Source: Geothrix fuzhouensis
Lineage (GTDB): Bacteria > Acidobacteriota > Holophagae > Holophagales > Holophagaceae
Reading direction: 5' to 3'
Length of the DNA stretch: 64,000 nt
Assembly (NCBI RefSeq): GCF_024609325.1
Contig: NZ_JANHMQ010000001.1
Span: forward strand, 434,001 to 498,000
In this document: piece by piece, positions 6,768 through 33,683 of the stretch
How positions within the stretch are numbered: position 1 is the stretch's first letter
Layout of the letters: each line of letters begins with the position of its first letter
Notes under the pieces: model-generated
What the model was told of the DNA's origin: nothing
What the model saw: only the letters and a program-made list of their open reading frames with translations
Databases searched by the model: none
Program-made: the position numbers and the translations under genes

Positions 6768-7471
6768 ACCTGGTACTGCTGCTGCCGGAGGATCTGACGG
6801 CTCCGGATCGGGCTCGCCTCACGGGCCGACGCCTGGCCCACGTCCGCGAGGTGCATCGCGCCGCGGTGGACGACGAGCTGGCCGTGGGCCTGCTGGGCGG
6901 GAAGATGGGCCGGGGCCGGGTGCTGCGCCTGGACGACGAGGCCCTGGACCTGGAGCTGACCCTGGATCAGGCGCCTCCGCCCAAGCTGCCGTTGACGCTG
7001 CTCATCGCCGTGCCGCGCCCCAAGGTGCTGAACCGGGTGGTGGCGGCCGCCGCCAGCCTGGGCGTGGCCCGTATCGTCCTGCTGAACGCCTGGAAGGTGG
7101 AGAAGGCCTACTGGGCCAGCCCGAAGATGCGGCCCGAAAACCTCCGCGAGCAGCTGCTCCTGGGCCTGGAGCAGGCCAAGGACACGGTCCTGCCGGACCT
7201 GCGCCTGGCGCGGCTCTTCCGCCCCTTTGTGGAGGATGAGCTGCCGGGCCTGCTGGCGGGCGGCACGGGCCTCATGGCCCATCCCGGCACGGGCGCGGTG
7301 GCGCCGAAGGTGCTGGCGGCCCCGGTCACCCTCGCCATCGGCCCCGAGGGCGGCTGGGTGGAGGCTGAGGTCCAGAGCCTGCTGAAGGCCGGCCTGCATC
7401 CCCTGGACCTCGGCCCCCGCATCCTCCGCACCGAGACCGCCCTGGCGGCGCTGGTGGGGAAGCTGTTCTAG
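6764..7471 (+). CDS. rsmE: 16S rRNA (uracil(1498)-N(3))-methyltransferase RsmE
   Basis: A 235-residue SPOUT-class methyltransferase that makes m3U1498 in 16S rRNA using S-adenosylmethionine. Visible features are the N-terminal RNA-binding PUA-like part, PRPKVLNRVVAAAASLG in the middle, and the C-terminal knot with LAIGPEGGW and LGPRILRTETA, both diagnostic for RsmE. The start is a TTG at 6764 that overlaps the TGA of the upstream acetyltransferase gene; the in-frame extension upstream is a shadow of that gene. The stop shares the palindrome CTAG with the stop of the convergent ilvA. Confidence 0.93.
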   Translation: MNLVLLLPEDLTAPDRARLTGRRLAHVREVHRAAVDDELAVGLLGGKMGRGRVLRLDDEALDLELTLDQAPPPKLPLTLLIAVPRPKVLNRVVAAAASLGVARIVLLNAWKVEKAYWASPKMRPENLREQLLLGLEQAKDTVLPDLRLARLFRPFVEDELPGLLAGGTGLMAHPGTGAVAPKVLAAPVTLAIGPEGGWVEAEVQSLLKAGLHPLDLGPRILRTETALAALVGKLF

Positions 7472-9006
7472 CCCAGGAACAGCCGGTACGCTGGGTTGTC
7501 GCCCTCATCCACGAACCGGTAGCCCAGCCCGTCCAGGAAGGCCTGGAAGGCAGGCGTGTCCTCGGGCGGTACCTGAATTCCGGCCAGGACGCGGCCGTAG
7601 TCGGCGCCGTGGTTGCGGTAGTGGAAGAGCGAGATGTTCCAGCCACGGCTCATGTGCTCCAGAAAGCGGAGCAGGGCGCCGGGGCGCTCGGGGAATTCGA
7701 AGCGATAGACGCGCTCATGGGTCACCGAAGGAGCTCGTCCGCCCACCAGGTGGCGGACGTGGAGCTTGGCCATGTCGTTGTCGCTCAGGTCCTGGGCCTC
7801 CAGCCCCTCAGCCCGCAGGCGCGCCAGCAGGGGCTCGAGCTCTGAGCGGTCTGACATCTGCAGGCCCACGAAGATGTGGGCCCGTTCCGGGTCCGCGAGT
7901 CGGTAGTTGAACTCGGTGATGGCCCGGTGGCCGATGAGTTCGCAGAAGGCCTTGAAGCTGCCCGGCCGCTCGGGGATGGTGACGGCGAGGATGGCCTCGC
8001 GCTTCTCGCCCAGCTCCGCCTGCTCCGCCACGAAGCGGAGGTTGTCGAAGTTGGCGTTGGCCCCGGAGAGGATGGCCACGAGGTTGCCTGCGGCCGGGTC
8101 GGCGCCCTGGCGGGCCGCCCAGGCCTTGAGCCCCGCCAGCGCCAGGGCACCCGCGGGTTCCAGAATGGAGCGGGTCTCCTCGAAGACATCCTTGATGGCG
8201 GCACAGATCTCGTCCGTGTTCACCAGCACCATCTCGTCCACGTACTGCCGGCAGAGCTCGAAGGGCAGGGCGCCCACCTGGCTGACGGCCACCCCGTCCG
8301 CGAAGAGACCCACCCGCTCCAGCCGCACCCGATGGCCGGCCGCCAGGGAGCGGGTCATGGCGTCAGCGTCCACCGGCTCCACGCCGATGATCTTGATCTG
8401 GGGCCGGAGGCGCTTGAGGTAGGCGGCGATGCCCGCGATGAGGCCCCCACCGCCCACTGGGACGAAGACCGCCTGCAGCCCCCGGGGCATCTGGCGCAGC
8501 AGCTCCAGGCCGATGGTCCCCTGGCCCGCGATCACCTCGGGATCGTCGTAGGGGTGGATGTAGATCTTGCCCTCGGCGGCCATGAGGGCCTGGGAGTGGG
8601 CGTAGGCCTCCTCGAAGGAATCCCCGTGGAGGACCACCCGCCCCCCCAGGCGGCGCACGGCGTCCACCTTGATGCGGGGCGTCGTCACGGGCATCACGAT
8701 CACCGCGTCGCAGCCCAGCTTACGGGCCGCCAATGCCACGCCCTGCGCGTGGTTGCCGGCTGAGGCGGCGATGACACCTTGGGCCCGCTGGGCCGGGTCG
8801 AGCTGGGCGATCTTGTTGTAGGCTCCCCGCAGCTTGAAGGAGAACACTGGCTGGAGGTCCTCTCGCTTCAGCCACACGGGGCAGCCCAGGCGGCTGGATA
8901 GGCGCGGTGCCGCCTCCAGGGGCGACTCGATGGCCACGTCATAGACCAGGGCCGTGAGGATGCGCTCAAGGAGATCCTGCGGGGGCTGGACCATATCTGG
9001 GCTCAT
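7468..9006 (-). CDS. ilvA: Threonine deaminase (threonine ammonia-lyase), biosynthetic type
   Basis: A 512-residue PLP enzyme converting threonine to 2-oxobutyrate, the first step of isoleucine synthesis. The PLP lysine is K58 in SFKLRGAYNK, and the phosphate-binding loop is PVGGGGLIAG. After about residue 335 two ACT-like regulatory domains follow (the second includes RVYRFEFPERPGALLRFLE), as in E. coli IlvA (514 residues), so isoleucine inhibition and valine activation are expected. The ATG at 9006 has GGAG nine bases upstream; upstream in-frame codons belong to the leader. Expression is probably controlled by the attenuator described at 9025-9149. Confidence 0.95.
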   Translation of the reverse strand: MSPDMVQPPQDLLERILTALVYDVAIESPLEAAPRLSSRLGCPVWLKREDLQPVFSFKLRGAYNKIAQLDPAQRAQGVIAASAGNHAQGVALAARKLGCDAVIVMPVTTPRIKVDAVRRLGGRVVLHGDSFEEAYAHSQALMAAEGKIYIHPYDDPEVIAGQGTIGLELLRQMPRGLQAVFVPVGGGGLIAGIAAYLKRLRPQIKIIGVEPVDADAMTRSLAAGHRVRLERVGLFADGVAVSQVGALPFELCRQYVDEMVLVNTDEICAAIKDVFEETRSILEPAGALALAGLKAWAARQGADPAAGNLVAILSGANANFDNLRFVAEQAELGEKREAILAVTIPERPGSFKAFCELIGHRAITEFNYRLADPERAHIFVGLQMSDRSELEPLLARLRAEGLEAQDLSDNDMAKLHVRHLVGGRAPSVTHERVYRFEFPERPGALLRFLEHMSRGWNISLFHYRNHGADYGRVLAGIQVPPEDTPAFQAFLDGLGYRFVDEGDNPAYRLFLG

Positions 9007-9024
9007 GGGTGCTCCGGGATAAAG

Positions 9025-9055
9025 AAAAAACCCCCCGACCTTGCGGTGCGGGGGG
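9025..9055 (-). terminator. Intrinsic terminator in the ilvA leader (attenuator)
   Basis: Read on the minus strand, a GC hairpin (six C-G pairs, then G-C and three further pairs, one bulged C) closes on a GCAA tetraloop and is followed directly by six T. It lies between the leader peptide stop and the ilvA ribosome-binding site, where it would stop transcription before the gene. Its 5' arm is also part of an alternative pairing with the end of the leader-peptide coding region. Confidence 0.85.
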
Positions 9056-9094
9056 CTTGGAATCGTGAATCGGATCCGGCCTATGCCCCCTCGC
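9048..9094 (-). promoter_or_regulatory. Candidate antiterminator of the ilvA leader
   Basis: On the minus strand GCGAGGGGGC (9094 to 9085), which encodes the last residues of the leader peptide, can pair with GCCCCCCGC (9056 to 9048), the 5' arm of the terminator. That gives nine base pairs with one bulged A. The two structures are mutually exclusive, the hallmark of an attenuator. A ribosome finishing the leader peptide would cover the first segment and allow termination; a ribosome stalled at upstream Ile codons would leave it free. Confidence 0.7.
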
Positions 9095-9149
9095 GCGACG
9101 GAATGATCGCGATGGCGGCGATAATGAGGGTGGAACCGGCGTGGGACAT
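9081..9149 (-). CDS. ilvA leader peptide, isoleucine-rich
   Basis: A 22-residue ORF from ATG at 9149 to TAG at 9081. Its core is TLIIAAIAII, with five Ile codons, one Leu and one Thr in ten residues, which fits a leader that senses charged tRNA-Ile for the threonine deaminase gene. It ends about 26 bases before the attenuator terminator and 75 bases before ilvA. The ribosome-binding site is weak (an AGG about eight bases upstream). It is too short to be found by routine gene calling. The coding role is inferred from composition and position; the sequence features are directly visible. Confidence 0.75.
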   Translation of the reverse strand: MSHAGSTLIIAAIAIIPSREGA

Positions 9150-9169
9150 GAGAAGCCTGTTGGAAGGTC

Positions 9170-9198
9170 AAACTAGCATCGATTTCCTGGTGCCACAA
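9170..9198 (-). promoter_or_regulatory. Candidate promoter of the ilvA leader
   Basis: On the minus strand TTGTGG (9198-9193) and TAGTTT (9175-9170) are separated by 17 bases, with TG one base further upstream of the -10 (TGC TAGTTT). Transcription would begin about 15 bases before the leader-peptide ATG. Moderate match to a sigma-70 promoter; supported mainly by its position. Confidence 0.45.
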
Positions 9199-9282
9199 GG
9201 CGATTTTGGGGGCGGCGCAGGCAGGGCTCGCGCCTTCATCGTTAAGCGATGTATAGTAGTCCACCCTTCACCGGAGTCTTTG

Positions 9283-33278: not shown

Positions 33279-33373
33279 AAGCCGGGCCCCATGCATCGGG
33301 GTGCGATGAACCGGGTCAGATCGGAAGAAGCAGCCCTAAGTCGTTCCCCCGAGTGCCGTGGTCAGCCCGGCCC
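33279..33373 (+). ncRNA. ffs: SRP RNA (4.5S, small bacterial type)
   Basis: The conserved domain IV is plain: GGGTCAGATCGGAAGAAGCA continuing GCCCTAAG, with the GGAA tetraloop and the asymmetric AGCAG loop that binds Ffh. Flanking arms pair into one long hairpin: GCCGGGC (33281-33287) with GCCCGGC (33365-33371), and ATCGGGGTGCGA with TCGTTCCCCCGA. Length is about 95 nt, so it is the Alu-less 4.5S form. The RNA with Ffh targets inner-membrane proteins. Ends are estimated from pairing. Its 3' end is repeated at the start of the downstream 155-bp units. Confidence 0.93.
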
Positions 33374-33683
33374 CTTTCGGGGCCAAGCTGACCATCGCGC
33401 AGCCTGCGCCTTCGGCTTGGCTTTGCGAGTCGGCACTGGCGTACGCTCCCAGTGGGTCCCCGCTTCGCAGAGCCCCCCGGGCTCTGCTCCGCGACCCACT
33501 TAGGTCGCGCACATGGTCAGCCCGGCCCCTTTTGGGGGCAGGCTGACCATCGCGCAGCCTGCACCTTCGGCTTGGCTTTGCGAGTCGGCACTGGCGTACG
33601 CTCCCAGTGGGTCCCCGCTTCGCAGAGTCCCCTGGGCTCTGCTCCGCGACCCACTTAGGTCGCGCACACGGCAAGCCCGGCCC
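33360..33683. repeat. 155-bp tandem repeat beginning with the ffs 3' end
   Basis: Two near-identical units (33360-33514 and 33515-33669) and a third start (33670-33683). Each begins with the last bases of the SRP RNA gene (GGTCAGCCCGGCCC; GGCAAGCCCGGCCC in the third). Each unit holds two strong foldable structures: one at its head (GGTCAGC...GCTGACC) and a nested 48-bp one (33452-33499, 33607-33654; GTGGGTC with GACCCAC around GCAGAGCCC with GGGCTCTGC). The differences between units mostly keep pairing, such as a C to T change giving a G-T wobble. Short open frames inside are not credible genes. The remaining bases up to 33758 hold nothing I can identify. Confidence 0.9.

Follow-up and report, generated by a model that had tools for sequence, protein, structure and literature searches.

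What controls the transcription of ilvA in Geothrix (family Holophagaceae, phylum Acidobacteriota), where this gene stands alone? In the window, by which we mean the whole stretch of 64,000 nucleotides analyzed, ilvA has a divergent ORF on its upstream side and an opposing ORF on the other. Among named species, the closest ilvA genes belong to Geothrix oryzisoli (95%), G. campi, G. terrae, G. paludis, and G. fermentans. The region upstream of ilvA contains, in minus-strand order, a predicted promoter, a leader ORF, an antiterminator arm, and a terminator:

9169–9199, minus strand: predicted promoter, CTTGTG-N17-TGCTAGTTTG, with -35 TTGTGG (9198–9193) and -10 TAGTTT (9175–9170).
9081–9149, minus strand: leader ORF MSHAGSTLIIAAIAIIPSREGA, 22 codons, ATG to TAG; its frame is conserved, with no constant parts other than its tail and Ile codons.
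9102–9125, minus strand: control region with five Ile codons, ATT ATC .. ATC. ATC ATT, as read in the sequence.
9095–9110, minus strand: possible protector hairpin (segment 1), which overlaps the last Ile codons, from fold prediction.
9085–9094, minus strand: antiterminator 5' arm GCGAGGGGGC, within the last leader codons, from duplex and fold computation.
9048–9056, minus strand: antiterminator 3' arm GCCCCCCGC, common to the terminator 5' arm, from duplex and fold computation.
9025–9058, minus strand: intrinsic terminator hairpin with a GCAA loop and T6, -23.8 kcal/mol, z -4.6; no shuffled sequence is equally stable.
9012–9015, minus strand: Shine-Dalgarno sequence of ilvA, GGAG; AGGAG or GGAG is retained in relatives.
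7468–9006, minus strand: ilvA, biosynthetic threonine ammonia-lyase, 512 aa (TIGR01124, 813.7 bits, cut-off 411).

The original prediction had described a promoter-like pair, a 22-residue leader, an antiterminator, and a terminator, and all of them are found where it had placed them. The terminator hairpin occupies 9058–9028, and the T6 tract 9030–9025. The proposed antiterminator, GCGAGGGGGC paired with GCCCCCCGC, is confirmed by computation as a 9-bp duplex with a single bulge (-20.8 kcal/mol). Its 5' arm begins 7 nt past the last Ile codon and ends immediately before the stop codon. When the tail of the leader is recoded at random with synonymous codons, an equally strong antiterminator results in only about 2% of cases. 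The density of Ile codons is also unusual: among 435 short ORFs of similar size in DNA of the window's genome, only one has an equally dense 10-residue Ile window (0.0023). The promoter-like element CTTGTG-N17-TGCTAGTTTG, which includes the pair TTGTGG-17-TAGTTT, has a single exact match within the window.

Translation of the leader is not assured, because its ATG lacks a strong Shine-Dalgarno sequence, as is the case in every ilvA leader inspected. In two relatives (L047 and L055), the leader ATG lies just 6–7 nt past a -10-like hexamer; given this distance, translation of their leader ORF may start on a leaderless mRNA. A Rfam scan of the window gave no regulatory family (T-box or riboswitch). 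The sole match was the bacterial small SRP RNA (RF00169, 62.3 bits), at 33280–33375 on the plus strand.

These parts suggest a simple switch, in which the speed of the ribosome on the Ile-rich leader probably decides whether ilvA is transcribed. RNA polymerase would start shortly before the leader ATG, and a ribosome would translate the leader behind it. When Ile-tRNA is scarce, the ribosome would stall on the Ile codons at 9125–9102 and leave GCGAGGGGGC free to pair with GCCCCCCGC once this is made: no terminator would form, and ilvA would be transcribed. When isoleucine is plentiful, the ribosome would reach the stop codon and cover GCGAGGGGGC, the terminator would fold, and transcription would end before ilvA. 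With the usual ribosome footprint, a ribosome stalled at the last Ile codon would cover the beginning of the arm, whereas one that stalls at earlier Ile codons would leave the whole arm free.

Folds were computed for each state. When the RNA before 9094 is masked, to imitate a ribosome stalled on the Ile codons, and the 3' arm of the terminator is absent, the antiterminator folds (-22.1 kcal/mol, z -2.7). When the antiterminator arm is covered, to imitate a ribosome at the stop codon, the terminator alone is left (-23.8 kcal/mol). In the equilibrium fold with the antiterminator arm present the terminator form wins, therefore the switch has to rely on the order of synthesis, with the antiterminator formed ahead of the terminator. 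Classical attenuators likewise involve a race between ribosome and polymerase (PMC1183508).

We have inspected the DNA upstream of ilvA at 80 named and 30 further loci. Holophagaceae contribute 30 distinct loci, of which 28 keep the leader unit, and a check of close relatives for loss of the leader ORF or of the alternative pairing found both retained. The two exceptions, L029 and L054, have no leader unit, and coding sequence now seems to lie directly upstream of ilvA in them. The IlvA proteins nearest to those of Holophagaceae are mostly betaproteobacterial (64–71%). Nothing similar to the leader unit is found at these ilvA loci of other lineages, about 60 in number, and we therefore infer that the leader is a Holophagaceae feature which did not come along with the ilvA gene.

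Within the family, nearly all ilvA loci have the promoter-like element with constant spacing. Leader lengths are 63, 66, 69, or 72 nt, so they differ by whole codons, and the gap from stop codon to terminator is 24–27 nt. The close group shares the peptide core IAII-x-SREGA, with Ile positions fixed relative to the stop; of the 15 group A leaders, 14 have Ile at position -7, counted from the C-terminus, and 12 have it at -8 and -10. One leader (L046) has two Ile codons only. The peptide itself is apparently not the product, because the first half is free to vary and third codon positions show no excess of change in ilvA leaders: what seems to be kept is the frame, together with the Ile codons and the tail at the RNA level.

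A distant group has other leader tails (IPGGG, IPHGG, IPQGG, LPTGG), and the terminator arm is altered to match. Pairing is thus retained with both arms altered: SREGA corresponds to GCGAGGGGGC, IPGGG to GGAGGGGGC, and IPQGG to GGGTGGC, which matches GCCACCC in the terminator. The covarying stems which had been proposed as a check give a divided answer. Column-wise covariation of the two stems within ilvA gives little signal, since the arms are nearly invariant within groups and shift between groups; on the other hand, lineages and paralogues with different matched arms do support it.

Two of the 28 loci which have the unit carry insertions. In L024 (G033), an insertion of about 300 bp, which starts with GGGTCTG and ends with CAGACCC, splits the arms of the terminator hairpin; it is a natural mutant of the predicted attenuator. 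A Geothrix sp. (G003) has an element of about 270 bp between terminator and ilvA (L010:1215-1486), with 32-nt terminal inverted repeats, AAGAGGTCATAACAAAACCC... In G. paludis (L042), an apparent scar of this same element (TTTGTTATGACCTCTTTGCCCGG) is found at the same position.

The GNRA loop and the six T are present in the window (GCAA, T6), as predicted, but they are not general. Among relatives the loop may be GCAA, GTCA, GCCA, or ATCA, and T6 occurs in the window but not in relatives, whose tracts read TTCTTC or TTTTTC; most of them have the interrupted U-tract TTCTTC. Such interruptions would suit a hairpin which acts mainly on ilvA translation, by sequestration of the ribosome-binding site or by reinitiation from the leader, and not on transcription. 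In L055 (G071), moreover, the hairpin is only 11 nt before ilvA and has no U-tract. Nevertheless, we find this explanation improbable: the hairpin in the window has T6 and leaves 12 nt between its end and the GGAG of ilvA, at least TTCTTC or TTTTTC is found in most relatives, and L055 may be a local variant.

Is the leader peculiar to ilvA? A covariance model built from the ilvA leader (R1) was searched against Holophagaceae, followed by a second model (R2) and direct inspection. R1 gives weak but significant matches outside ilvA in the family, many of which are leaders with codons for another amino acid, placed before the gene that corresponds to it. The window's genome contains at least nine leaders, ilvA included; the genes which follow them were identified by NCBIfam. 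The other eight leaders are:

trpE: MPLSFPTLRQGLLHGAWWWRTGSDGSSREA, Trp codons, AWWWR.
pheA: MTHSRRFFPFSFRTSGARVGGV, Phe codons, RFFPFSF.
DAHP synthase: MTPRFHTYYWFPHTDRAWHGEGPA, Phe, Tyr, and Trp codons together, RFHTYYWF.
thrA: MTTNGTITHPDHRGA, Thr codons, TTNGTIT.
ilvD: ..AGLVAIPAVLIISGEVGAP, Ile, Leu, and Val codons, VLII.
proB: MIPVATLNPIPSQPIPGAPVGGI, Pro codons.
proC: MILIPVIHPRPSTLSAGGSCTTS, Pro codons.
asnB: MTFLSARFNRHSNNRLPRANRAWAGEGLT, Asn codons, RFNRHSNN.

These leaders are not equally distinctive. Compared with short ORFs of this G+C-rich genome, those of proB and trpE are only moderately unusual, and the Pro content of the proC leader, taken alone, is no higher than chance; the case for proC is based on the motif HPRPS, which is conserved across species. 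We have seen no leader in the genome's own his operon or before leuA. Five weak matches in the same genome (L206, L207, L209, L212, and L213) were rejected as leaders: they correspond to a tRNA 3' end, gene ends, and coding sequence.

Such leaders recur in other species and genera. The asnB leaders include DNRNNN in G052 and TNRNFNN in G009, and thrA leaders have TTTTTGT in G066 and G070. Leaders before hisG are found in other genera, for example HLHHHAH in G070. The his operon of G065 (L231:1510-1744) has two leaders in series before hisG, LHHHRHH followed by RHAHPH, with a separate hairpin for each. Locus L179 (G066) seemingly has a second hairpin upstream.

In the window's genome, the asnB (L205) and DAHP synthase (L204) leaders have a common tail, RAW.GEG, with Asn codons in one case and Phe/Tyr/Trp codons in the other as control codons. 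They give the impression of a single cassette which was duplicated and then re-coded. Attenuator-like leaders are also found before genes for LysR-type regulators, Thr-rich in L181 (G056; MTTPTTTTAAIWFRVRAV) and Val/Ile-rich in L286 (G070; VLALSNLSVVVIIDHGAGAI), so a LysR-type transcription factor is possibly under amino-acid attenuation at these loci. An Asn-rich leader, MLKTSLTRQNNRNNANPSTDRAWGGEALV, precedes a 417-aa ORF in L277 (G053:C9:53064), which has no match among the reference proteins used.

Taken as a set, leaders pair better with their own terminator arms than with those of others. For 23 leaders, the leader end was paired with its own terminator arm and with every other one. Own partners have a mean of -18.6 kcal/mol and permuted partners -15.6 (sd 0.58; z -5.3), and none of 20,000 permutations is as good as the own pairing; the 23 include orthologues, so the test is conservative in one way, as cross partners also fit, and non-independent in another. 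Pairing is not individually significant for the aroF, asnB, and proC leaders and for one hisG leader, and a wrong hairpin was scored for one of the tandem hisG leaders.

Outside Holophagaceae we have detected one leader, VLGLLVIDVLVLETSGVQAG, before ilvD in G128. Among the R1 matches outside this family, from 297 genomes of the phylum, we have recognized no leader; most of them cover only the terminator end of the model. With R2, eight loci outside the family were inspected: the G128 leader is one of them, and the other seven are ordinary terminators or chance matches.

The RNA around the ilvA leader stop, on both sides, is conserved at every codon position, and TAG followed by CCGGATC is repeated in several leaders. 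This would be expected of a structured RNA which binds a protein or a small molecule, similar to a riboswitch or to the LEU element, with Ile codons present incidentally; a comparable case has been argued for the actinobacterial LEU element (PMC1262725). We consider this slightly less probable still than an action on translation: there is no match to any Rfam family, leaders whose RNA is unrelated each carry cognate codons, and in ilvA the RNA before the antiterminator is variable, whereas Ile positions are constant. The hairpin might also simply end a transcript from upstream, or stop transcription early with no regulation, the ORF being there by chance: short ORFs are abundant in G+C-rich genomes and the stem resembles ordinary ones which the models found elsewhere in the phylum, but the upstream gene is divergent, the promoter, frame, Ile codons, and pairing are conserved, and cognate codons precede nine different genes, which makes this the least credible explanation.

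In summary, its parts, their conservation, the matched arms, and the cognate codons, all of them visible in the sequence, make the ilvA leader very probably a ribosome-mediated transcription attenuator, coupled to translation, which responds to charged isoleucine tRNA. The classical reading put forward originally is thus supported in two ways: Ile codons, frame, and pairing are kept in close and distant Holophagaceae, and the same design precedes other biosynthetic genes, with codons for the amino acid concerned. In fact, the original prediction did not go far enough, because the genome has at least nine leaders of this type. The ilvA leader is one of them: it belongs to a Holophagaceae set of putative attenuators with codons for the product of the controlled gene.

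We are inclined to think, with some reservation, that leader-peptide attenuation is general for amino-acid biosynthesis in Holophagaceae (Ile, Ile/Leu/Val, Thr, Trp, Phe, Phe/Tyr/Trp, His, Pro, and Asn), and that the leaders are in part one cassette which was copied with exchange of its control codons. If true, Asn-sensing asnB and Pro-sensing proB and proC attenuators would be new kinds of target. For Acidobacteria, hardly any of the attenuators predicted earlier had a known function (PMC2965389). A predicted function may now be assigned, along with at least nine targets across the family, putative His attenuators in series in a further genus, and mutants by natural insertion. With such a system, one may ask beyond Proteobacteria and Actinobacteria if translation-coupled attenuation is an inheritance, a transfer, or a repeated invention. 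It also bears on whether transcription and translation stay coupled in Geothrix, and leader ORFs may be used to predict the role of unnamed genes in Acidobacteriota.

Our literature search, which covered sources other than subscription journals, found no description of leader-peptide attenuation in Acidobacteriota, and no Asn-sensing asnB or Pro-sensing proB or proC leader. The mechanism itself is classical: its occurrence in Acidobacteriota is apparently new, as far as we have found, and the Asn- and Pro-sensing leaders look unusual. Several known systems are comparable. Leader peptides with terminators have been described outside Proteobacteria for the actinobacterial trp, leu, cys, and ilvB attenuators, a set for which Asn or Pro leaders are not mentioned and in which some leaders lack parts or do not use the codons; some conserved leader codons of Corynebacterium proved to be non-regulatory (PMC1262725). 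Leader-peptide attenuation has also been deduced by comparison in other phyla, for hisS and hisZ of bacilli (PMC2965389) and for uORFC motifs (PMC8632094). The latter include a precedent for a leader at aroF, in Acholeplasma, which is reported with Phe only, whereas the Geothrix DAHP synthase leader combines Phe, Tyr, and Trp. The attenuators of Enterobacteria (ilvGMEDA, ilvBN, thr, trp, his, and pheA) likewise have a leader peptide with cognate codons and mutually exclusive antiterminator and terminator. The ilvA gene of E. coli is also under attenuator control, as part of ilvLXGMEDA, but there ilvL serves the whole operon, whereas the Geothrix gene stands alone with its own leader, which would sense only Ile. 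Geothrix also differs from Enterobacteria in that the antiterminator arm is inside the last leader codons, the sequence is unrelated, and the phylum is a different one.
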